Below, piece by piece: positions 1 through 12,890 of a DNA stretch of 64,000 nt (position 1 is the first letter of the stretch; every line of letters starts with the position of its first letter). The notes beneath the pieces are model-generated. The model worked only from the letters and a program-made list of their open reading frames with translations. It did not search any database and had not been told where the DNA came from. A program made the position numbers and the translations under genes. Origin of the DNA: Candidatus Lambdaproteobacteria bacterium RIFOXYD2_FULL_50_16 (GTDB lineage: Bacteria > SAR324 > XYD2-FULL-50-16); the NCBI GenBank assembly GCA_001783695.1, contig MFNE01000030.1, positions 11,884 to 75,883 on the forward strand, read 5' to 3'.

Positions 1-975
1 GCAGCGGCAGCTTGGGCCACTTCGGTTGCAGCGGCAGCGTCAGCCGCATCGCTGGCGGCGGTGGCCGCAGCCGCAGCCGAATCGGCTGCGTCACTAGCGG
101 CTTGGGCGGTTTGGGCAGCAGCGTCTGCCGCGGCAGACTGGGCGGCTTCGCTCGCGGCCGTCTCGGCGGCAGCATCAGCGGCAGCTTGGGCAACGTTGGC
201 TGCATCAGCGGCAGCCGAAGCTTGAGCCGCTTCGCTCGTAGCAGAAGCATCGGCCGCATCACTGGCAGCGGTGGCATCAGCGGCGGCGGCTTGAGCGGCA
301 GCAGATTCAGCTAAAGCGGCCGCTTCAGCCGCATCGGCTTGAGCAGCGGCCTGATCCGCTGCGTCACTAGCAGTAGAGGCTTGAGCAGCAGCAGCTTGTG
401 CCGCATCGGCAGCCGCTTGGGCGTCGGCGGCCTGGGCCGCTTCGGTAGCAGCAGTCTCGTCTGCCGCATCACTAGCAGCAGTGGCTTGAGCAGCAGCAGC
501 TTGGGCCGCATCGGCAGAGGCTTGGGCGTCGGTGGCCTGGGAAGCTTCAGCAGCGGCAGTCGCGTCCGCAGCATCACTGGCGGCGGTGGCTTGAGCCGCC
601 AGATCCGCAGCCGCTTGAGCGGCTTGGTCGGCAACAGCAGCGGCTTGATCGGCAGCGTCACTAGCAGCAGTCGCCTGGGCCTGAGCCTGGGCCGCAGCGG
701 CTTCGGCAGTGGCCGCATCGGCGGCAGCTTGATCAGCAGCATTGCTGGCAGCCGTGGCATCAGCTGCTTGAGCAGATTCGGTTTGGGCAGCGGTCTCAGC
801 AGCGGCAGCTTCCGCCTGGGCGTCAGCCAAGGCTTGATCGGCGGCGTCACTGGCGGCAGTGGCCGCTTGCGCCGCTTCGGCAGCAGAGGCAGCAGCGAGA
901 TCAGCAGCAGCACTCGCAGCAGCGGCTTCAGCAGCAGCTTGATCGGCCGCATTACTGGCGGCAGTGGCATCGGCT
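1..975 (-). repeat. Coding repeats with ATAAS[DN]AAD motif spaced at 35 or 28 residues (70 once)
   Basis: Motif recurs at spacings 35, 35, 28, 28, 35, 35, 35, 70 aa, all multiples of 7. Confidence 0.8.
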
Positions 976-2243
976 TGGGCGGATTCAGCTAGGGCCGCAT
1001 CAGCCGCCGCTTGTTCTGCTTGGCCTAATTCAGTTTGAGCAATCGCTTGAGCCGCTTGGGCGGCTTCTTGAGCTAATTCAGCAGCGGCTTGGGCATTTGC
1101 TGCGGCTTCAGCAGCAGCTTCGGCCTGTCCGGCCTCAATAGCGGCTGTTTCTTGAGCGGCAGCTAATTGAGCCTCAGCGGCGGCTTCGGCGGCTTGAGCG
1201 GCTTGACTAGCGGCAGCAGCAGCAGCGGCTTGCGCTGATTGGCTGGCGGCTTCGGCTTGGGCGGAGGCGGCAGAAGCTTGAGCAGCGGCGGCCTGAGCGG
1301 CTTCGGCTTGGGCAATCGCGTTGGCCTGTTCTACGTTGCCCGCAATGGCATCAGCCAACGCCTGGGCCCCATCTGCATTAGCCTGAGCAGCATCGGCAAT
1401 GGCTTGTGCCTCGGCGGCAGCATCAGCAGCTACTTGAGCAGCAGCAATGGCGTCTTGGGCGGCAGACTCTAACGCGGCTTGAGCTTCGGCTGCGGCCTGT
1501 GCAGCTTGCGCCGCATCGGCAGCCGCTTGAGCGGCAGCAGTGTCAGTCGTATCTGTCGTATCTGTAGCTGTCGTAGTTGTATCGGTGGTACTAGTTGTCG
1601 TCGTAGTTGTTGTATCAGAGGTAGTGTCCGTGGTGGTATCAGACGTGGCAGTTGTGTCCGTGGTCGTGGTGGTTGTAGTGACGGTGGCCGGGTCAAAGGT
1701 GGCGGTAGCGCCTGTAGTGGGTGTAGCGGGAGCTTGGTCTGCAGGTGCGGTAGAAGCCGCTTCAGCAGCGGGGGCGGCTTGGTTCTGGCTGACTAGAAAT
1801 TCTTCTGGGGCGGCGGACTGCTGGGCTTGAGTCGAGGGACCAACATCCATACCGAAACCGCCTTGTTCAGCCGCTTGCTCTTCTTGAACATCTTGGGTTT
1901 CTTGATCTGTGGCTTGAGGGGCAGCCTGAGCATTTTCAACCGCTTGATTCGCCTGGGTTGCTTGGGCATCTTCGCTTGCCTGGTCACCTAGGTCTAATTC
2001 AGAAGACTTCGCGCTAGAAAAGTTGGAGGATATAACCCCTTCTTGAGCTTCCTTTTCGAAGGTGGCTTCCGACTGTCCCACCACTACGGGAGCCGCATCA
2101 CCAGAGGCTTCTTCCCCTTCGATCTTGCCTTCCTCTTGGCCGCTGAAATTCTTCTTTTCAACGTCCGCAAGGTTAGTGAGTTCGTCAAACTCGATGGTTT
2201 CTTTGGATTGCTCTTTGCCTTTGCCTTTTTCTTGATCAGCCAT
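1..2243 (-). CDS. Large Ala-rich repetitive protein, probable type I secretion substrate/adhesin (N-terminal part; runs off left edge)
   Basis: Minus-strand frame open from ATG at 2243 (MADQEKGKGKEQSKETIEFDELTNL...) to position 1, checked by hand across most of the region; Thr/Asp linker (TTTTTTTDTTATSDTTTDTT...), then Ala-rich repeats (ATAASDAADQAAA...). No signal peptide. Directly downstream of HlyD/ABC genes. Missing from the ORF track, presumably because it has no stop in the window. Confidence 0.88.
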   Translation of the reverse strand, partial: MADQEKGKGKEQSKETIEFDELTNLADVEKKNFSGQEEGKIEGEEASGDAAPVVVGQSEATFEKEAQEGVISSNFSSAKSSELDLGDQASEDAQATQANQAVENAQAAPQATDQETQDVQEEQAAEQGGFGMDVGPSTQAQQSAAPEEFLVSQNQAAPAAEAASTAPADQAPATPTTGATATFDPATVTTTTTTTDTTATSDTTTDTTSDTTTTTTTSTTDTTTTATDTTDTTDTAAAQAAADAAQAAQAAAEAQAALESAAQDAIAAAQVAADAAAEAQAIADAAQANADGAQALADAIAGNVEQANAIAQAEAAQAAAAQASAASAQAEAASQSAQAAAAAAASQAAQAAEAAAEAQLAAAQETAAIEAGQAEAAAEAAANAQAAAELAQEAAQAAQAIAQTELGQAEQAAADAALAESAQADATAASNAADQAAAEAAAASAAADLAAASAAEAAQAATAASDAADQALADAQAEAAAAETAAQTESAQAADATAASNAADQAAADAATAEAAAAQAQAQATAASDAADQAAAVADQAAQAAADLAAQATAASDAADATAAAEASQATDAQASADAAQAAAAQATAASDAADETAATEAAQAADAQAAADAAQAAAAQASTASDAADQAAAQADAAEAAALAESAAAQAAAADATAASDAADASATSEAAQASAAADAANVAQAAADAAAETAASEAAQSAAADAAAQTAQAASDAADSAAAAATAASDAADAAAATEVAQAAA

Positions 2244-2440: not shown

Positions 2441-3559
2441 TTATCGCTCAGTTAGAGCCCGCTGGGAGGAAGAATATACCGGCTTGAGCAGGTAATGGAA
2501 GATGGTTTTACTACCCGTTTTGATACTGGCGTCTAAGGTCATGCCCGGTAATATCGGGTTGGCGCCAGGGACCTCCCCTAAAAAGGGTTTTTCAAAATCG
2601 ACTACTGCTTTGTAATAAGGCTGCCCGGTCCGGTCCAAAAAGGTAGCCGCCGAAATCTCGCGCAGCACCCCAGCCATACCGCCATAGCGAGAATAGTCGT
2701 AGGCCGTGAACTTGAGTTTGACCGACTGTCCAGGTTGCACATGGCCAATATCTTTAGAAGAGATCTGCACCTGCGCGAAAAGCTTTCGATCAATGGGGAC
2801 AATCTCCATGATCACTGCCGCAGGGGGCAAGATCCCGCCTAAAGAGTGGGCCGAAAACCCGTGAACCGCCCCCGTTGTTGGGGCGCGGATGGTCAATAAA
2901 TCCAGTTTTTCTTGTACTAAGGCAAGTTCACTGCGAACCAAGGCCAAGTCTTCATTGTTTTTGGCCAATTCCTTAAGGGTCTTTGCATTTTCGGCAATCT
3001 CTTCCATCTTGGCCTTGTATTGCTCAACCTGATTTTGAAATGCGGCCCTGCGAATATCACGATACAAAACCAAAAGCTTTAAAATCTTGTCCTGATCTTT
3101 TCGAAACTGCGCTGATTGTGGGTCATCTTCAGGGACGGTTTCACTAAACTGAATGACCCCTTTTTCTTCTATATAGGATTCTAACCGCCGCTTTTCAGCG
3201 ACCAAATATCGCTCCTGGGCTCGAAGCTGTTTTTGTTGGGCACGAATTTCTGGGTTGTCTAAAACCAACATAGGTTGGCCCTTCTGAACGATCTGTCCTT
3301 CTTCAACAAAAATATCCAAAACAATCCCGCCAGAAATGTGCTGTACCGGCTGTATTTGCCCGGTGGGGATGATCTCACCTTTGGCCACGGCAATCTCGTC
3401 CACCTCGGTAATCATCGACCAAGCTAAAAACATCACAAATACCGCCAAGGAAAAGGCCACGATCAACCTCGTGATAAAGGCCCCACCTGACTCCTCTAAC
3501 AGAATCGACTTGGAAAGGTGTTGTGATTCGAGTCGTAGAAACTTTTTAAGTCGTTCCAT
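2441..3559 (-). CDS. HlyD-family type I secretion membrane fusion protein
   Basis: N-terminal TM, VAKGEIIPTGQIQPVQHISGGIVLDIFVEEGQIVQKGQPMLVLDNPE biotinyl-lipoyl-like motif, C-terminal APTTGAVHGF and PGMTLDASIKTGSKTIFHYLLKPV. Confidence 0.93.
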   Translation of the reverse strand: MERLKKFLRLESQHLSKSILLEESGGAFITRLIVAFSLAVFVMFLAWSMITEVDEIAVAKGEIIPTGQIQPVQHISGGIVLDIFVEEGQIVQKGQPMLVLDNPEIRAQQKQLRAQERYLVAEKRRLESYIEEKGVIQFSETVPEDDPQSAQFRKDQDKILKLLVLYRDIRRAAFQNQVEQYKAKMEEIAENAKTLKELAKNNEDLALVRSELALVQEKLDLLTIRAPTTGAVHGFSAHSLGGILPPAAVIMEIVPIDRKLFAQVQISSKDIGHVQPGQSVKLKFTAYDYSRYGGMAGVLREISAATFLDRTGQPYYKAVVDFEKPFLGEVPGANPILPGMTLDASIKTGSKTIFHYLLKPVYSSSQRALTER

Positions 3560-3566
3560 AGTTTTC

Positions 3567-5696
3567 CTAAGCGCCCAAAAATTTGGGCAATATTTCCTCT
3601 TTGCTGCCGTAGGCCCGCATGCGGCCCTTTTCGAGCCAGAGGATTTTGTCAGCTAGCTCGATAAAACTCAAATGGTGAGTGGCTATCAAGATGGTTGAGC
3701 GGCCTTTGATTTTTCTAATCTCGTTTATAAAGGCGGCTTCTTTTTCGGCGTCACCAGACAAACCAAACTCAGGGTCGTCAAATAAAACCAAGCTGGCCTC
3801 TTTTAAAAACACCCGTGCCAGACTGATTCCTTTGCCTAATTTTTCGGCTAACTCGCCCATAGTACGGCTGTTGGCAAAGGTATTAAACCCTTCAGGCAGT
3901 TCCATGATTTCGTCATAAATCGAGGCTTTACGGGCCGCCTCCCAGATCTGCTGACTAGTGGCGGCAGGATTGGCGAGGCGCATGTTTTGGGTTAAGGTGC
4001 CATGGAAGAGTTGGTTCGATTTGGGCACGTAACCGATTGATTTACGAAGTGTAATCGGGTCAATCTGGCGCAGGTTCATGTCGTCGATCAATACCCGCCC
4101 CGCTTGCGGGTGGTAGTAACCTAACACCAACTTGAGCACCGTCGATTTACCCGCCCCATCATGGCCAACAATCGCCAAGGTTTCTCCCTGTTTTAGGTCA
4201 AACTGAACCGCCAAAAGGGCGGGTGGAGCCTCGGGATTGTAACGGATGGAGACGTTGTTAAAGGCCAGTTTGCCGTGAATACTTTTGGTCAAAGACATGT
4301 TTGTGTCGATCCGGGTTTCGATATTCATCGACATTAGCCGGTCCAATTGGTTGACACTTTTGCCTAATTTTCCGACCTGAGTGATAATCCCCAATCCGGT
4401 CTTTACCGGCGCTAACACCCGCCCTAAAAGTAACATACAAGCCATCAAAGCCCCAACCGACATCCCCCCGCCAATCACCTGATACACCCCAACGGTCATG
4501 GTGGCCAAACTGGAAAAGGTCACCAGTGATTGGCTGGTTGTACCAATCAATGCGTTTAGGCGGGCGGCGTAAAAGCTGTTTAAGGAGGCCTTGGCCGAAA
4601 TTTCCCGGTATCTCTGGCAAAAAATACTGGCACTACCGGTAAACTTAATTGCCTGAAAATTCGAAAGCATATCGAGCAAAAACTCTTGCCGCTCGGACGC
4701 GGCTTTAGAGGCCTTGGCGTTGGTTTGTTTAACCAACGGGTTGATAGCAAAAGCGAAGGCAATAAAGATTAAAATGGAAATGGTCGGAATATAGGCGACC
4801 GGTCCGGCAATAACTACCATGCCCACGATCAGCATGATCACAAAGGGCAGTTCAACTAGGGCCGTAAAACCGGGGCCTGCGAAAAACTCGCGGATCGATT
4901 CAAAATCCTTAATGTGAGAGATTTGGCTGGCTAAGCTAGCCTCTTCGGTGAAGCCCGGTGGCAGATAGAGGATACGCCTCAGTACTTCAATCCCCACAAT
5001 ATTGCCCATACGCACACTTACAAAACCAAACAACCGACTGCGAAGCACACGAAAACCAAAATCGCCGATCACAAAGATAAAAATCCCCATAACCAAAAAC
5101 ACCAAGGAGTAGGTCGATTCGGCAACCAACAACTCGTTATAGATGGTCATAACAAACATCGGAGAAATAAAGGTAAAAACCGATAAAATAAAGGTAATGA
5201 TCAACCCTAACATAAAGGAGACTTTAAAACGCCCTAGAGCCTTGGCGAACCATTCTTTTTGGGGTTTTAAAAATTCAATTTTGTCTGATTGCAAGGACTC
5301 GAATAACAAGGCCAAACCTTTGATCGGCTCTGAGGAGATTTGTTTGTAGGTGGCCGACTTACCGTCAAATATTAGTAATTTTCCCTCGACCTGCTCCACC
5401 AATACCTGCGCCGTCCCCCCTTCGGGCACCCAAATACAGGGCAAAAGCCTGGGGTCTAGGTGATCAAGCTGGGTTGAAACCCCTTTGGATTCAAACTTTA
5501 GGATGGCCAAGGTGTTACGGAATTCGGCCAAGTCCATCTTCGAGGCCATGTAGCTATGAGCTTCGGCCAATTGAGATTGGGTCCCTAACCAACCCAAACT
5601 ATCAAGTAAGGGAACCAAGCAATTAGAAAAGGGGCTCCGCTTTTTAAAACGGGTTCTTAATTTAAATCGAATGGACGATTCGTCGGGCCGGTTCAT
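3567..5696 (-). CDS. Type I secretion ABC transporter (C39-like N-terminal domain, TMD, NBD; intact Walker A, degenerate signature)
   Basis: TMD plus Walker A GHDGAGKST, Walker B LVLFDD, H-loop IATHH; LSGGQ position reads LAEKL. Confidence 0.9.
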   Translation of the reverse strand: MNRPDESSIRFKLRTRFKKRSPFSNCLVPLLDSLGWLGTQSQLAEAHSYMASKMDLAEFRNTLAILKFESKGVSTQLDHLDPRLLPCIWVPEGGTAQVLVEQVEGKLLIFDGKSATYKQISSEPIKGLALLFESLQSDKIEFLKPQKEWFAKALGRFKVSFMLGLIITFILSVFTFISPMFVMTIYNELLVAESTYSLVFLVMGIFIFVIGDFGFRVLRSRLFGFVSVRMGNIVGIEVLRRILYLPPGFTEEASLASQISHIKDFESIREFFAGPGFTALVELPFVIMLIVGMVVIAGPVAYIPTISILIFIAFAFAINPLVKQTNAKASKAASERQEFLLDMLSNFQAIKFTGSASIFCQRYREISAKASLNSFYAARLNALIGTTSQSLVTFSSLATMTVGVYQVIGGGMSVGALMACMLLLGRVLAPVKTGLGIITQVGKLGKSVNQLDRLMSMNIETRIDTNMSLTKSIHGKLAFNNVSIRYNPEAPPALLAVQFDLKQGETLAIVGHDGAGKSTVLKLVLGYYHPQAGRVLIDDMNLRQIDPITLRKSIGYVPKSNQLFHGTLTQNMRLANPAATSQQIWEAARKASIYDEIMELPEGFNTFANSRTMGELAEKLGKGISLARVFLKEASLVLFDDPEFGLSGDAEKEAAFINEIRKIKGRSTILIATHHLSFIELADKILWLEKGRMRAYGSKEEILPKFLGA

Positions 5697-7073
5697 CTAG
5701 TAACTTATGTCAGGGTGACTATAAAGCTCGAAGTCCACATCGTTGATGTGGTTAATCCAGGGCCTTAAAACCATCGTTTTCACCTTGGGCGAAAAGGCTA
5801 AGTTTCCCACTTTAAGGTGGGAGCGTAAATCAGCTAAGTCTTGCAAAATTTCGTCGTGTTGCCTTTTGTGCTCGCGGTACCTAAAAGGGATCTCCAGCGC
5901 CAACCAAGCCTCTTCTTGAGCAAAAAACTGCCTACCTAGGTCGTGTATTTTTTGTAAGAGGTACACCGTTTCTTGGACCAAATCATCAAGGCGCGTCTCG
6001 CCGATTTCCCATGACTCAATAACCAACACCAAGTCTAAAATCTTATCGGTTAGTTTTCGGTGGGACTCATCCAGCCAGTCCATACCGGTGCTGCGCAGGA
6101 AATATTTGGCCTCGTTCCAGTTGCGCACCTGTTTTACTACGGTGGTTAAAATACTCGCCTCCGCGAAGGTCTCCGCATCCACTTCGTTTATATGGTCGAT
6201 CCAGACCAAGATCAAAGAATCTCTAATTTCTTTGACAATACCAGCCCGACAACGGACCAAGTCGTCTCGTAGCGACTCTAATTGTTTAATAATGCGGTAA
6301 TGTTCTTCAAGGTGGAACTCTTTATTGGGTAAATTGAATCGCTCAATGAGCACCCGCTCGCGAGCAAAATGTTCGGCCATTTTAGAGGCGATAATCTGGA
6401 AATGGTCTTGAAGCTGCGCCCCTAATTTATCCGGCAGGAATTGAAGTGCCTTGTTTAGCTTGATAATGGAAACCAAAATATCTTTGTGATCATGGTCCAC
6501 ATATTCAATCCCGAGGTTATGGATTAAAAGGGCCACATGGTCCCACTTTTCCGCGTGGTCCACGATGTTTTGGTGCCAGCGAGAAAGGGTGAAGGTTCGT
6601 CCGTCGGTTTTGTTGACATGGGCGATCATCCAGTCTTGTAAGAAAAGTTTTAAAAGCTGGCCGATCTTGAGTTTGCCTGCTTTAAAGTCCGAGATCATCC
6701 CTTGTAGGGTGTCGATAAAATATTGGTGTTCTTCTTTTTGCTGTGGGCCACCCTCTAAGAGGTATTGCTCTATCATCCACTCTTCGCGGTCAAACTGTTC
6801 GGTGACAAATTCCAAAACACCTTGGAGAAGTTTTCCTTGGGCTTGAATAAAATCCATGTCCCTGGGTTCGTCTTCAAGTAGGTCTTGCAACCGGTTGTTT
6901 TCAAGTACAAATAAAACCATTTGCTTGAAATATCGCTGCATAAAAAACACACCTGTACGAATAATAATTTTGCCAATATCAGGTTGCACCCTTGCAGTCT
7001 GCCAGACCCAACGCTCCCAAGACTGTTGCCGTCTTTCTTCTAGGGTCATGTCTTTTTCTTCGATCATCAGCAT
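5697..7073 (-). CDS. Three-domain hemerythrin-like protein
   Basis: Three repeats ending WMIAHVNKTD / WIDHINEVD / WINHINDVD; middle domain keeps the DHDHK, HFARE, HLEEH and HINEVD ligand pattern. Confidence 0.82.
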   Translation of the reverse strand: MLMIEEKDMTLEERRQQSWERWVWQTARVQPDIGKIIIRTGVFFMQRYFKQMVLFVLENNRLQDLLEDEPRDMDFIQAQGKLLQGVLEFVTEQFDREEWMIEQYLLEGGPQQKEEHQYFIDTLQGMISDFKAGKLKIGQLLKLFLQDWMIAHVNKTDGRTFTLSRWHQNIVDHAEKWDHVALLIHNLGIEYVDHDHKDILVSIIKLNKALQFLPDKLGAQLQDHFQIIASKMAEHFARERVLIERFNLPNKEFHLEEHYRIIKQLESLRDDLVRCRAGIVKEIRDSLILVWIDHINEVDAETFAEASILTTVVKQVRNWNEAKYFLRSTGMDWLDESHRKLTDKILDLVLVIESWEIGETRLDDLVQETVYLLQKIHDLGRQFFAQEEAWLALEIPFRYREHKRQHDEILQDLADLRSHLKVGNLAFSPKVKTMVLRPWINHINDVDFELYSHPDISY

Positions 7074-7075
7074 GG

Positions 7076-8839
7076 CTATTCCTTAGGAGAAAAGAGGTTG
7101 ATCTCGATATTGCGTGGCCGAGTCTGAGTAGAGGCCCCCATTTTGGTCAATCGGCCCTTTTTAAGGCTAAAGCGGCGGTCGGCCTCGGCTAAATATCGCT
7201 CATGTTCGCTAACCAGAATTATCGTGCAGTTGCCCTTTAATTTATCGAGTACAAACTTAAAGACCCTTTTTGAATCCACATCGGCCACATCCAAGACCCG
7301 GTTGATCAAAAAAATTCTTGGCCTGACTACCAACGCGCGAGCAATGGCAATTCGGTGCAACATCCCCGAGGGCAAGACGCTATTGGTATGACCCCCGACC
7401 AGGGTTTCGTATCCCTTGGGCAACTGGGCCACCATTTCGTCGAGTTCAATTAGGGAGGCGGCATCTAATGCGGAGGACTTTTTGCGGGTATCAAATAGGG
7501 TGATATTTTCTAAAATCGTACCCCGAAAAAGGTAACTGTTCCCCGAAAGATATTCCATCCGACCTTGCAGGTTAGTATGATCCCATTGGAAAATATCATA
7601 CTTATCAATCAACACCTGCCCGTGGCTTGGATTGAAAACGCCACACATAATCAAAAGCATATGGTTAGTGGCGATGGTATCGGTAGAAGAAATGCCAATC
7701 ATCTCGCCAGGATTGATGGTCAGGTTGATTGACTCTAAAATCGGCTCACCTGTGTTTAGATTGTGGTAAGAGACGTTTTTAAGTTCAATCTCCCCTTCAA
7801 TGGCAGATGGGAAAGGGGGGGCTCCAGGTTTGGTGTCAGGCTCGGTACGGGCGATTTTAGAGATTTTTTCTTGTAAAAGATCGGCTTCTGAAAGTTTTAG
7901 CCAAAAGGTCGCCGCTGCCTGCACCGGGCCCAAGGACCTTCCACCTAGCATGGTGCAAGCCGTCAGCCCACCTACCGTCAAAGTTCCTTCTAAGACCCGC
8001 CCTGCCCCAAAACCGATGGTGCCAAACATAATCGCTTGAGAAAACAAAAACCCGATGTTGCTAGGCATGGCGTTCCAAAAGTTCACCCGCATGTTCGAGG
8101 TAGCGGCGTTTGCCTGAAGCCGTTCATAACGGCGCAACATCTGCTCTTCCATGGTCAGGCTTTTGACCTGGCTAATGGCGTCTAAGATCTCAATAATAAA
8201 GTTATATCGTCGGTCGGTCTGGACGGATTGTTCATTTTGGGCGGTTTCCAGGCCCTGTTTGAAATATTTAATAACCCATAAATAAAGCAGAATCATAACA
8301 ATTGGGAACAACACCAACCATCCACCTACAAAGCCAATCGCCAGCAGGAATAAAACCAAAAAGGGCAGGTCTAAAAGCATTTGGAACGCTTGGCCGGCGT
8401 AAAAGCTTTTAAGCTGGCCCACGGTGTTCAGCCGGTCGAGATGAACCCCCACTTCTTCCGATTGGAACCGGGCCAATTGACCCGATAAGAGGCGATTGAC
8501 CGCAGAGCAGCTAAGTAAGTGTTCAAAACGGGCCGCCATCCAACTACTGATCCAGCTTCTGGCGTAGCGCAGCGCCCATTCTAAGCTAAAGGCGATGATA
8601 CAGCCAAAAACCAGCCAGATTAGGGTATCTGTGGTATGGTTGCGGATAACTCGGTCATAGACCTGCATCAAGGTTAGAGGCAGACCTAAAGAAAAAACGG
8701 TAATCAAGCCAGAAGCCACTGCAATCTGTTTAGAACCGACCCAAAGGTGTTTCATCGCCTTGAGTTGCTCAAGCAGGGTGCCCGGATTTTTAAAGTGGTC
8801 GATTAAATCGACCGGTGCTGTTTCTTCAGGATTGGTCAT
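7076..8839 (-). CDS. Type I secretion ABC transporter paralog with degenerate NBD
   Basis: ABC TMD; Walker A position reads ISSTDTIATNHML (no GK[ST]), signature LPSGMLHRIAIARAL, Walker B position IFLINRV. Confidence 0.88.
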   Translation of the reverse strand: MTNPEETAPVDLIDHFKNPGTLLEQLKAMKHLWVGSKQIAVASGLITVFSLGLPLTLMQVYDRVIRNHTTDTLIWLVFGCIIAFSLEWALRYARSWISSWMAARFEHLLSCSAVNRLLSGQLARFQSEEVGVHLDRLNTVGQLKSFYAGQAFQMLLDLPFLVLFLLAIGFVGGWLVLFPIVMILLYLWVIKYFKQGLETAQNEQSVQTDRRYNFIIEILDAISQVKSLTMEEQMLRRYERLQANAATSNMRVNFWNAMPSNIGFLFSQAIMFGTIGFGAGRVLEGTLTVGGLTACTMLGGRSLGPVQAAATFWLKLSEADLLQEKISKIARTEPDTKPGAPPFPSAIEGEIELKNVSYHNLNTGEPILESINLTINPGEMIGISSTDTIATNHMLLIMCGVFNPSHGQVLIDKYDIFQWDHTNLQGRMEYLSGNSYLFRGTILENITLFDTRKKSSALDAASLIELDEMVAQLPKGYETLVGGHTNSVLPSGMLHRIAIARALVVRPRIFLINRVLDVADVDSKRVFKFVLDKLKGNCTIILVSEHERYLAEADRRFSLKKGRLTKMGASTQTRPRNIEINLFSPKE

Positions 8840-9226: not shown

Positions 9227-10636
9227 ATGAGGGGAATTGGCGTCTTTTTGCTCTTTTGCATTTGGTTTGCTCCTGAACTAAGGGCGGTAACCCTACAAGA
9301 GACCTTGCAAAACGGTATGGCCTCGGAAGAAGCGCAGTCTGAATTTTCCAGGAGTCACCAGGCGATTGATTATCGGGCAGAGGAGGTGGACGAACTGACC
9401 GTCAAAAGCAAACTGACATCAAAATTTGTCCGCTCTCGTAATGATTTGGCCGACACCCAAGACGTGGCGGTTACCGCTTCAGATAAATTTACTAGACAGG
9501 TCGCCTATACCCAGACCTTTGACATGGGCCTTGAGTGGAGCCTGACCCACTATGACCGAGATGAAAACCCACTTAATTCGGGTTCGTCCAAGTCTTTTTA
9601 TGGCAAGGATATTTTTGATATTTCGATGGCGATTTGGGGCTCAAGACTCGATAAAGAACGGCTGACCTCCCAAAAAAGGGAGATTGAGTTGGAAGGGGAA
9701 CAGGCTAAAACCAGCGGGGTCGAACGGCAGTATCAGGTTGAATTGGCAAAGGCCTATTTGGATTATTATCTGGCTCAACAAGAAGCCCAACGCAAAGCAA
9801 AATTAGCCAATCTGACCTTTCAAAAATTGCAGTTTATGGAATCCATGGCGCGGCGTGACGCTCCCATGGAATATCAAAACCTGCAAATGGAAGCCTTGCA
9901 GGCAAGGCATGAAGAGGCCCAAGCCCAGGTTAGGGCGGAGCATTTTAAACAACTTTTAGAACTCGCCCAAGGTTGGCCGGTTAAAGACGAGGCTCTACTA
10001 GAAGAAGCACGGCCCCGGATGTTAAAGGCAGAAGAATTGGCCAAACTTTACCAAAACGGGGATCAGGTAAAGGTGCTAGCCAGAAAAATTCGCACTGCCG
10101 AGCGGGACCTAGGGATCGAACGGGCAGGATATCAGCCCGAAGTGATTATTGGGGGATTTACGGGCCGCACCAACAACGGCTCCCAGGACGGTTTTAGCAA
10201 AGGAACCTATGTGGAGATCAACTACCGCTTCGGCGGCGGGGGCTGGGAAAAGGCCTCGCGGTTAGCTTTGGAGCTTGAAGAACTAAACCTTGATCTGGTT
10301 GACTTAAAAAATCAGCAGGTGCACCAAGCGGCTGCGGATTCGGCTGAACTCAAGATGGCGGCTGAGATGGTGGTTATCAAGACCAAACAATTAGAGATTG
10401 CCCGGGGGATTACCAAGCAATCGTTGCAATCCTTCGGGGTGGGGCAGCAGGGGCATTTAGAACTGGTTGGCTACCAAGAAAAGGAGATTAACACCGAGGC
10501 TGGATTAGACAAAGCCAAGGTGGATTTATGGAAAAAACTGGCCGATATCGCCCAAAAGGCGGAAGTCGATCTTTTAGAATTGGCCGGATGGCCTAGTTCG
10601 TCTAATCAGCCGGAAAACTTCCCGGCACAACCATGA
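9227..10636 (+). CDS. TolC-family outer membrane efflux protein
   Basis: Signal peptide and long helical repeats (QVELAKAYLDYYLAQQEAQRKAKLANLTFQKLQFME) typical of OEP; divergent from T1SS genes. Confidence 0.85.
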   Translation: MRGIGVFLLFCIWFAPELRAVTLQETLQNGMASEEAQSEFSRSHQAIDYRAEEVDELTVKSKLTSKFVRSRNDLADTQDVAVTASDKFTRQVAYTQTFDMGLEWSLTHYDRDENPLNSGSSKSFYGKDIFDISMAIWGSRLDKERLTSQKREIELEGEQAKTSGVERQYQVELAKAYLDYYLAQQEAQRKAKLANLTFQKLQFMESMARRDAPMEYQNLQMEALQARHEEAQAQVRAEHFKQLLELAQGWPVKDEALLEEARPRMLKAEELAKLYQNGDQVKVLARKIRTAERDLGIERAGYQPEVIIGGFTGRTNNGSQDGFSKGTYVEINYRFGGGGWEKASRLALELEELNLDLVDLKNQQVHQAAADSAELKMAAEMVVIKTKQLEIARGITKQSLQSFGVGQQGHLELVGYQEKEINTEAGLDKAKVDLWKKLADIAQKAEVDLLELAGWPSSSNQPENFPAQP

Positions 10637-10649
10637 TCGAGACTTAACA

Positions 10650-12890
10650 ATGAGATACTGGCTTTCTTTGATCTGCTTAATACTTTTCGCCTCTTCGGCG
10701 ATGGCCAAGGAACTGGTGATCACCCGCGACAATACCCCAGAGTGGAGTTTTGACCGCCCGATCTGGGCTGAACTGGTTTTAGGGGAGGTCGTAGCCCACA
10801 ACCGCGCGGTGGCCAACCTAATGGCTCACTATAAAACCCAACCCTTGCTAAAAGCCTTAAGCGACGAAGAGTCGGCCGCCTTAGGGCATGGCATGGTCTG
10901 GTGGGATTTTCGCGCCTTGCCTAAATACCCTTTAAACAACAGCCATGGCCTCTATTTCGAAGCTAATTTCCGCGCCACCGAAGACGACTTGACCCTCAAG
11001 TCGGGGATGATGCTAAACAAACGGCTTTCCTGGCTTTTAGAACTACGAGAACGTTTAAAAGAGCAACAAAAAGAATTAGAAGACGCCAAGGCTGGACAGT
11101 TTGTTAAAATGGCCCAAGCGACAGACCGGCTTTATAACCTTTTGGGCCAAATCAACGTCAACAGCCCCATGACACCTGCGCCTTTTAAAGACGGTTTAGA
11201 AGCCCTGCTTAACAAGCAGTCCGAAGCCCGCCAAGCGCAAATCCGTGCGATTGAAGACGAGGTTGACCCTTTAGCCCAGCTTAACAAACAAAGGGCCTTT
11301 TTTGAAGCCGAACTCAAACGCAGAGAAGAACTACTGGCACACAACACCCACCTGTTCCCAGTAAAAGACGACGAGGCCGGGCTTTTGGCCCAAGCCGAAC
11401 GGCTCAAAGCTGAATTTAACTTCTTTTTAGGTTCTATCCGCATCTATGAAGCCCAACTTAACCGAGAACGGGCTAGAGCGTTTGAGGAAGTCCGCAGGGA
11501 ACTAAAAGCCAAACAACCAGAACCGCCAGATCGTGAAAAATATCCGGCTCCCGAGGCTTATGCCAAGGCTCAAGAAGAGTTCCGCTCGGCGATTCGGGCT
11601 AGCTTAAAAGAGCTAGAGGTCACCAAAAGGCAAAACCAAGCCTTAGAGGCTTTAAAAGAAGCGGAAGCAAGAGTGTGGTTAGGCGAAATGGCTACCCAAG
11701 TTTTAAAACCACGGCTAGAAGCTTTAAGTAAGTTAAAAAACCAGCGGGTGACCGTAGAGGATAAAGACCTCCGTTTTGTGGTTAAAGGATTGGATAAGGA
11801 AGAGCTAGGGGTTCGTTTTGGTTATAAAGGAGCCAATTGGGACCAGACTTTCCCTTCACAAACGATGTTAAATAAGGACGATTTTACTGTAGCCGGGCTT
11901 TGGCGGCTGGCTAGTCCTGATGAAAAACGGATGTACTTCACCTTTGCCGGGGTAACCCTAACCCACAAGCCCGATTCAAAGACACGGTCCTATGAATTAA
12001 CCGACCCTCTGCCCTTTTCTGAAGAAGCGGTTTACGAAAAATATGCGATTGCCGACACAGATAAAGCCCGGATCGAGACTAAAAACCTCAACTACGCCCA
12101 CCGAATGCAAGACAAGCTCTGGGACAAAGAGCTAGGAATGGAGTTTGTTTTGGTGGACGGTGGCTGTTACCAGATGGGTTGTTCGCCCAAGCAACGTCGC
12201 GACGCCGATGGTAATCTTTATTCTGCCAATGAGTGTGAGGAAAACTCTCAACCTGCTCACGAGGTCTGTTTAGATTCGTTTTTATTAGCCAAGTTCGAGA
12301 TTACTCAAAAAATTTGGGAACAAGTGATGGGCTCCCAACCCTCCAAGTTTGCTAAGGGACCCGATTTCCCGGTCGAGTCGGTCACCTTGACCGACGTGCG
12401 TGCCTTTTTAAGTAAGCTCAAGTCCCAAGGCAAAAACTACCGCCTGCCGACCGAGGCCGAGTGGGAATTTAGCTGTCGAAGTGGCAAACAGATGGACTAT
12501 GGCACCTCTTCGGGCGCGGCTAACCACGATCAAGCCAACTTCGAATACACCGGAGGCCGAGACCGGTGGGGCGAAACCGCGCCCGTGGGCTCTTTCCCGC
12601 CCAACCTCTTGGGGCTTTACGACATGAGTGGCAACGTTTGGGAATGGGTTGAAGATGGCTATGACGCCAACTACTATGCCTCCAGCCCCAAAAACAACCC
12701 TCTCAATCAACAAAGTGGAGCCAACGTGCTTAGGGGGGGGTCTTGGCTAAGCCATAGCTCGAATCTTAGCTGTTACAAACGGGTGATCAACGCCCCCGAA
12801 TACACGAACTTTACCGTTGGTTTTCGGGTGGTCCGCGAGGACGCCGAGGGTAATAAACCTGAAGCGGCTCCGGCGGCCAAGTCCAAGTAA
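10650..12890 (+). CDS. Secreted coiled-coil protein with C-terminal formylglycine-generating-enzyme-like (SUMF1) domain
   Basis: Signal peptide MRYWLSLICLILFASSAMA; FVLVDGGCYQMG, YRLPTEAEWEFSCR, GLYDMSGNVWEWVEDGY, VLRGGSW, VGFRVVRE. Confidence 0.92.
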   Translation: MRYWLSLICLILFASSAMAKELVITRDNTPEWSFDRPIWAELVLGEVVAHNRAVANLMAHYKTQPLLKALSDEESAALGHGMVWWDFRALPKYPLNNSHGLYFEANFRATEDDLTLKSGMMLNKRLSWLLELRERLKEQQKELEDAKAGQFVKMAQATDRLYNLLGQINVNSPMTPAPFKDGLEALLNKQSEARQAQIRAIEDEVDPLAQLNKQRAFFEAELKRREELLAHNTHLFPVKDDEAGLLAQAERLKAEFNFFLGSIRIYEAQLNRERARAFEEVRRELKAKQPEPPDREKYPAPEAYAKAQEEFRSAIRASLKELEVTKRQNQALEALKEAEARVWLGEMATQVLKPRLEALSKLKNQRVTVEDKDLRFVVKGLDKEELGVRFGYKGANWDQTFPSQTMLNKDDFTVAGLWRLASPDEKRMYFTFAGVTLTHKPDSKTRSYELTDPLPFSEEAVYEKYAIADTDKARIETKNLNYAHRMQDKLWDKELGMEFVLVDGGCYQMGCSPKQRRDADGNLYSANECEENSQPAHEVCLDSFLLAKFEITQKIWEQVMGSQPSKFAKGPDFPVESVTLTDVRAFLSKLKSQGKNYRLPTEAEWEFSCRSGKQMDYGTSSGAANHDQANFEYTGGRDRWGETAPVGSFPPNLLGLYDMSGNVWEWVEDGYDANYYASSPKNNPLNQQSGANVLRGGSWLSHSSNLSCYKRVINAPEYTNFTVGFRVVREDAEGNKPEAAPAAKSK

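Follow-up and report, generated by a model that had tools for sequence, protein, structure and literature searches.

Two complementarily degenerate ABC half exporters in a SAR324 genome are predicted to form a heterodimer of type I secretion ancestry with one better-preserved ATP site

Can two half exporters that have each lost a different part of their ATP-hydrolysing machinery add up to one motor? This question is raised by a locus of Candidatus Lambdaproteobacteria bacterium RIFOXYD2_FULL_50_16 (GenBank assembly GCA_001783695.1), situated in a stretch of 64,000 nucleotides of contig MFNE01000030.1 (positions 11,884 to 75,883) that was analysed as a whole and is called the window here. Two genes for ATP-binding cassette (ABC) proteins lie there on the minus strand, to which all coordinates below refer unless a plus strand is given. 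ABC-A (7076..8839; A in all comparisons) is a 587-aa half exporter with a transmembrane domain and a nucleotide-binding domain (NBD), and ABC-B (3567..5696; B in all comparisons) is a 709-aa half exporter with an N-terminal C39-like region that A lacks (Pfam, alignment). Both open reading frames (ORFs) are intact, and each contains ABC_membrane and ABC_tran (Pfam). Judging from the sequences, A and B very probably constitute an asymmetric obligate heterodimeric exporter with one catalytic site, which descends from type I secretion systems (T1SS) and would export a giant repeat protein with the help of a HlyD-type adaptor.

The two halves are degenerate in opposite ways. Motif slots were set by alignment with canonical exporters, with Walker A, LSGGQ, DE and the H-loop His falling in the same columns. 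In A, the signature is partly kept and the ATP pocket is lost: the Walker A slot (ISSTDTIATNHML, 7655..7693) carries Thr for Lys, the Q-loop slot (LSGNSYLF, 7526..7549) Gly for Gln, the Walker B slot (IFLINRV, 7295..7315) Asn for Asp and Arg for the catalytic Glu, and the H-loop slot (VSEHE, 7199..7213) Glu for His, while the signature region (LPSGMLHRIAIARAL, 7331..7375), with LPSGM in the signature slot itself (7361-7375), retains the second Gly of LSGGQ. In B, the pocket is kept and the signature is lost, as Walker A is intact (GHDGAGKST, 4140..4166), Walker B (LVLFDDP, 3771..3791) keeps its Asp with Asp also at the catalytic Glu position, the H-loop (ATHH, 3672..3683) keeps its His, the Q-loop (VPKSNQLF, 4005..4028) has Lys for Gln, and the signature slot reads LAEKL (3837..3851). 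A preliminary description of the window had already noted that the 709-aa protein keeps Walker A, has LAEKL as its signature and has Asp at the catalytic position, and that the 587-aa protein lacks Walker A, has an altered Walker B and keeps more of its signature; with exact positions located and aligned to canonical exporters, all these readings proved correct. Unmentioned there were the Q-loop changes in both proteins, the H-loop change in the 587-aa protein, and three further genes of the locus treated below, namely a triple-hemerythrin gene, a downstream HlyD gene and a probable cargo gene.

A composite ATP site brings together the Walker A and B motifs and the Q- and H-loops of one NBD with the signature of the other (PMC7756269). 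With the NBDs in head-to-tail contact, the catalytic site of A-B would be made of Walker A, Walker B and the H-loop of B, closed by the LPSG signature helix of A, and the opposite site, consisting of the A pocket and the B signature, would be incapable of ATP hydrolysis. The transport cycle would then be driven by ATP bound and hydrolysed at the catalytic site alone, with the dead side acting as a hinge. Since the live site of the window carries both the Glu to Asp and the Q-loop Gln to Lys substitutions, a slow ATPase is to be expected.

This pairing of the two halves recurs in other genomes. A scan of one genome per species, covering 84,980 species, yielded 67 loci in Rhodospirillales, Magnetococcales, Thalassospira, Desulfamplus, SAR324 and others. 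In every one of the 70 loci with both subunits, A is encoded upstream of B on the same strand or is fused to it, and in 22 of them the two form a single polypeptide of ~1,300-1,450 aa; on Azospirillum plasmids, for instance, A-B is one protein adjoining HlyD and a giant Ig-like gene. Only four loci contain A alone (L054, L057, L105 and L112), and these are partial matches or short contigs. Phylogenetically, A and B each form one clade (Shimodaira-Hasegawa-like approximate likelihood ratio test, SH-aLRT, 100), and their divergences mirror each other (mirror-tree r = 0.978), a correlation to which the common ancestry of the genomes contributes. The invariant gene order, the fusions, the two clades and the correlation of about 0.98 together support the obligate heterodimer proposed in the preliminary description, and we infer that A and B associate physically. 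As in asymmetric exporters, two different halves are encoded together or fused, with pocket defects in one NBD, signature defects in the other, and one site conserved.

How unevenly the two sites are conserved can be seen across the family. At the better-preserved site, the second Gly of the signature (Gly4) is present in A of 69/70 loci, and B keeps the Walker A Lys in 68/68, the Walker B Asp in 68/68 and the catalytic Glu in 67/68. At the opposite site, Gly4 of the B signature is kept in just 10/68 and the H-loop His of A in 21/70. Parsimony counts on trees of 56 non-redundant loci tell the same story: about 3 changes in total at the live site (A-Gly4 0, B-Lys 0, B-Glu 1, B-His 2) and about 16 at the dead site (A-Lys 2, A-Glu 2, A-His 7, B-Gly4 5). 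These results bear out the view that Walker A of the 709-aa protein and the signature of the 587-aa protein form the better site, whose residues are nearly invariant, and that the other site is doubly dead, given that the A pocket and the B signature are both lost in the window and erode across the family. No pair with two intact LSGGQ motifs was found among the orthologs. The claim that one ATP site is usable holds in so far as a single better site is conserved; the copy in the window is weakened, and its usability is thus an inference.

Together with six other members, the window makes up a subclade (support 100 in the A, B and joined trees); these six are G013, the SAR324 metagenome-assembled genome (MAG) nPCRbin7, two Magnetococcales MAGs, Magnetospirillum sp. 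SS-4 and a Desulfamplus MAG. In the latter, ABC-A (L049 2436-4176) is split over two frames, by either a frameshift or an assembly error. Within the subclade, the Walker A Lys of A is missing from 7/7 members and both its catalytic Glu and its H-loop His from the 6/6 members scored, and the opposite site probably lacks the usual ATP binding; outside the subclade, A keeps Lys in 62/64 and Glu in 63/64 loci, and His in only 21/64. Judged by these alignments, the change of the B signature is family-wide and total loss of the A pocket is a mark of the window subclade. As total loss of the A pocket is confined to the subclade and most of the family lacks Gly4 in B, the most likely order is that the B signature (often together with the A H-loop) degenerated first and the A pocket later. 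The idea that both halves were lost simultaneously is rejected by this staging, because most A proteins outside the subclade keep Lys and Glu. The preliminary description had taken the loss of opposite halves as a sign of co-evolution: mirrored divergence and selection support that part, but the losses were staged and the halves did not disappear together. Members of the family range from mildly affected ones, with an altered B signature, to ones in which one ATP site is lost completely, and some are natural single-chain fusions, so that the need of a secretion motor for two ATP sites is directly testable.

Both halves appear to be derived from type I secretion. The best profile for each is the T1SS ABC model TIGR03375, and both are half exporters with ABC_membrane and ABC_tran. 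The AlphaFold2 model of ABC-A (mean predicted local distance difference test score, pLDDT, 81.6) shows an entire exporter half, its NBD confidently predicted; the nearest solved structure in Foldseek is HlyB in the HlyB/HlyD complex (8dck_A). The ABC-B model (mean pLDDT 79.8) has an additional N-terminal domain not present in A, which T1SS profiles align to the C39-like region. In the same operon, directly downstream, lies a gene for a 372-aa HlyD-type periplasmic adaptor (2441..3559), matching TIGR01843 type_I_hlyD with 278.9 bits, over its cut-off of 208.65. HlyD-like ORFs were additionally found in L042, L043 and L049, and HlyD is annotated in Azospirillum. The gene order on the minus strand is ABC-A, triple hemerythrin, ABC-B, HlyD and putative cargo, and the locus as a whole resembles one for type I secretion. 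A TolC-like outer membrane efflux protein (PF02321 OEP, 28.4 bits) is encoded divergently from ABC-A on the plus strand (9227..10636) and is, by its position, a possible outer-membrane partner. HlyD, and probably this TolC-like protein, would act with A-B in secreting the giant repeat protein.

The probable cargo is encoded next to the HlyD gene, by an ORF that starts with ATG at 2243 and is open past the window edge (1..2243). It is acidic, repeat-rich and 44% Ala, and seems to extend farther along the contig, across assembly gaps, as far as about C30:7111. A DELTVLQN-like motif is common to the N-termini of the putative cargo ORFs adjoining the transporter in the window (where EFDELTNL resembles it), L046, L047, L048 and L109, and an N-terminal LTVLQ motif also occurs in ORFs of L066, L078 and L088, on the opposite strand near a fused ABC gene. 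This suggests a family-wide N-terminal tag on putative cargos, and on grounds of position and this short motif the giant repeat protein is likely the cargo of the exporter. With its continuation (L044 7111-11999), the Ala-rich repeat protein would reach perhaps 2,300 aa, assembly gaps included. The Ser/Gly-rich plus-strand ORFs in the cargo region are mirror images of its coding sequence.

One might instead suppose that ABC-A is an incipient pseudogene beside a working ABC-B homodimer, its motifs having been lost under relaxed selection. Many motifs are indeed lost in A of the window, which has a longer branch in the A tree than any other subclade member and an NBD that keeps 77% of the invariant residues; this value, however, is close to the 79% of L043 and L109, and A is an open frame in 6/7 subclade members from several phyla. 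A B homodimer would have no normal site, as B lacks a usable signature, and the signature Gly of A is kept in 55/55 scorable non-redundant loci. Moreover, the ratio of nonsynonymous to synonymous substitution rates (dN/dS) is 0.02-0.30 for whole genes in close pairs, all pairs tested being under purifying selection, and 0.16 for the A NBD in the closest pair of the subclade (L047/L048); the window and its sisters are saturated at synonymous sites, and an exact dN/dS for the window is not obtainable. The retained invariants, the low dN/dS and the conserved pairing of asymmetric orthologs largely refute decay of the 587-aa gene and leave it very little probability, in agreement with the earlier claim that selection rather than decay shaped the pair. 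About equally improbable is that A-B is a multidrug or lipid exporter of the TmrAB/LmrCD type. Its fold is common to TmrAB, TM287/288 and BmrCD, but the best profile and fold matches are to T1SS proteins, B has its C39-like region, the operon contains HlyD, and giant repeat proteins stand alongside the transporter in several lineages.

A somewhat less remote alternative, though still an improbable one, accepts the heterodimer and holds that in the hemerythrin-bearing subclade neither site hydrolyses ATP efficiently, A-B being a gate or channel that opens when ATP binds and draws its energy from elsewhere. Several observations point in this direction or otherwise weigh against a single-site secretion motor. 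The signature of ABC-A is LPSG rather than LSGGQ, two catalytic-site residues of ABC-B are replaced in the window (by Lys in the Q-loop and by Asp at the catalytic Glu position), B of the sisters L047, L048 and L109 has lost the H-loop His, and B of L048 has the signature LPMGL, which retains the second Gly; efficient hydrolysis is not assured even at the better site. The TIGR03375 scores of the two halves (332.8 and 456.8 bits) lie under the curated NCBIfam cut-off of 693.1, so that A and B are classed as divergent relatives and not as TIGR03375 members. The putative cargo is assigned by position and a short motif, and the sister contigs end inside it. Against a mere gate, the Walker A Lys and Walker B Asp of B have been retained in 68/68 loci, and the catalytic Glu of B persists in 6/7 subclade members. 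Sites with Asp at the catalytic Glu position also seem to remain capable of hydrolysis (review PMC7756269). The heterodimeric exporter with one catalytic site is therefore the reading we favor.

What distinguishes the window subclade is a hemerythrin gene between A and B, present in 7/7 members from several phyla. In the window it encodes a 458-aa protein with three hemerythrin domains (5697..7073; NCBIfam hemeryth_dom, 3 stretches). In the class of the window, G023 and G013 have orthologs arranged alike, in the order A, triple hemerythrin, B, HlyD. Altogether, the triple-hemerythrin gene occurs in the window, L042, L043, L046-L049 and L109, the L109 copy being apparently quadruple, and the proteins are 25-30% identical to that of the window. 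In the latter, domain 2 shows the usual ligand pattern, and domains 1 and 3 lack some His (alignment). Magnetochrome domains were found in 6/6 sister genomes (G013, G023 and those of L047, L048, L049 and L109), with MamK over its cut-off in 5/6 and MamB likewise in 5/6; among the relatives of the window, magnetosome markers occur in 3/58 genomes, two of the three being the same sisters. In the window genome (97.9% complete), no magnetosome genes were detected by MCR, MamK or MamB models, its MamK and MamB matches being far under the cut-offs, like the actin-like and cation diffusion facilitator (CDF) proteins of control genomes; thus the association holds for the sister genomes only and is not absolute. 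Since lineages with magnetosome genes conserve the hemerythrin gene between the two halves, secretion is possibly controlled through oxygen or redox state, although any link of hemerythrin to oxygen or iron is a guess. It is tempting to speculate further, at low probability, that the ATP-dead half has turned into a regulatory subunit tied to a multi-domain hemerythrin, with oxygen or iron/redox state gating the export of a giant surface protein, and that the module dispersed across several phyla of magnetotactic bacteria and persists in the window genome.

TmrAB, TM287/288, BmrCD, TAP and Pdr5 likewise combine one consensus with one degenerate composite site. They export small molecules or peptides, whereas the A-B family differs in its T1SS descent, HlyD, giant putative cargo and, in one subclade, hemerythrin. 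Pdr5 is the nearest in extent of degeneration among the asymmetric exporters compared: in its NBD1 the Walker A Lys is Cys, the Walker B Glu is Asn and the H-loop His is Tyr, and the NBD2 signature reads LNVEQ (PMC7756269). It is an exporter that works with one site as degenerate as that described here (PMC7756269). HlyB and the LssB/LapB-type T1SS transporters (TIGR03375, TIGR01846; PDB 7sgr, 8dck) resemble A-B in fold, best profile and structure matches, the C39-like region (in B), the HlyD partner and a giant putative cargo nearby. They are homodimers with two canonical sites; A-B, in contrast, comprises two diverged genes and a predicted heterodimer, with one competent site, one C39-like domain and scores below cut-off. 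For two ABC proteins in one T1SS, as predicted for A-B, the four-component RtxB/RtxE system of Vibrio MARTX loci offers a parallel, both ABC proteins being needed according to the available passages of its description (PMC3034196); the comparison covers the two-ABC make-up, and those passages mention neither hemerythrin nor fusion. Asymmetric exporters (PMC7756269) and, on the same passages, two-ABC T1SS (PMC3034196) are known. As far as titles, abstracts and some passages tell, the literature searched contains no asymmetric pair of ABC proteins with one site that is devoted to type I secretion, and searches on hemerythrin with T1SS or on T1SS with degenerate NBDs gave no description of this system; nor did any paper join 'magnetotactic', 'hemerythrin' and 'type I secretion'. 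Relative to that literature, it would be new for descent from T1SS to be combined with a single-site heterodimer, with fusions of the two halves in nature and with a hemerythrin gene set between them.

A further exporter pair in the window genome, again encoded by adjacent genes, is asymmetric in the textbook manner (L045 3761-7265, G000:C36), one half having LSGGQ and LLILDN (catalytic Glu to Asn) and the other LSAGQ and an intact DE. In the window, the TolC-like gene is directly followed by a gene for a 746-aa protein (10650-12890) with a C-terminal FGE-sulfatase/GldK-like domain.

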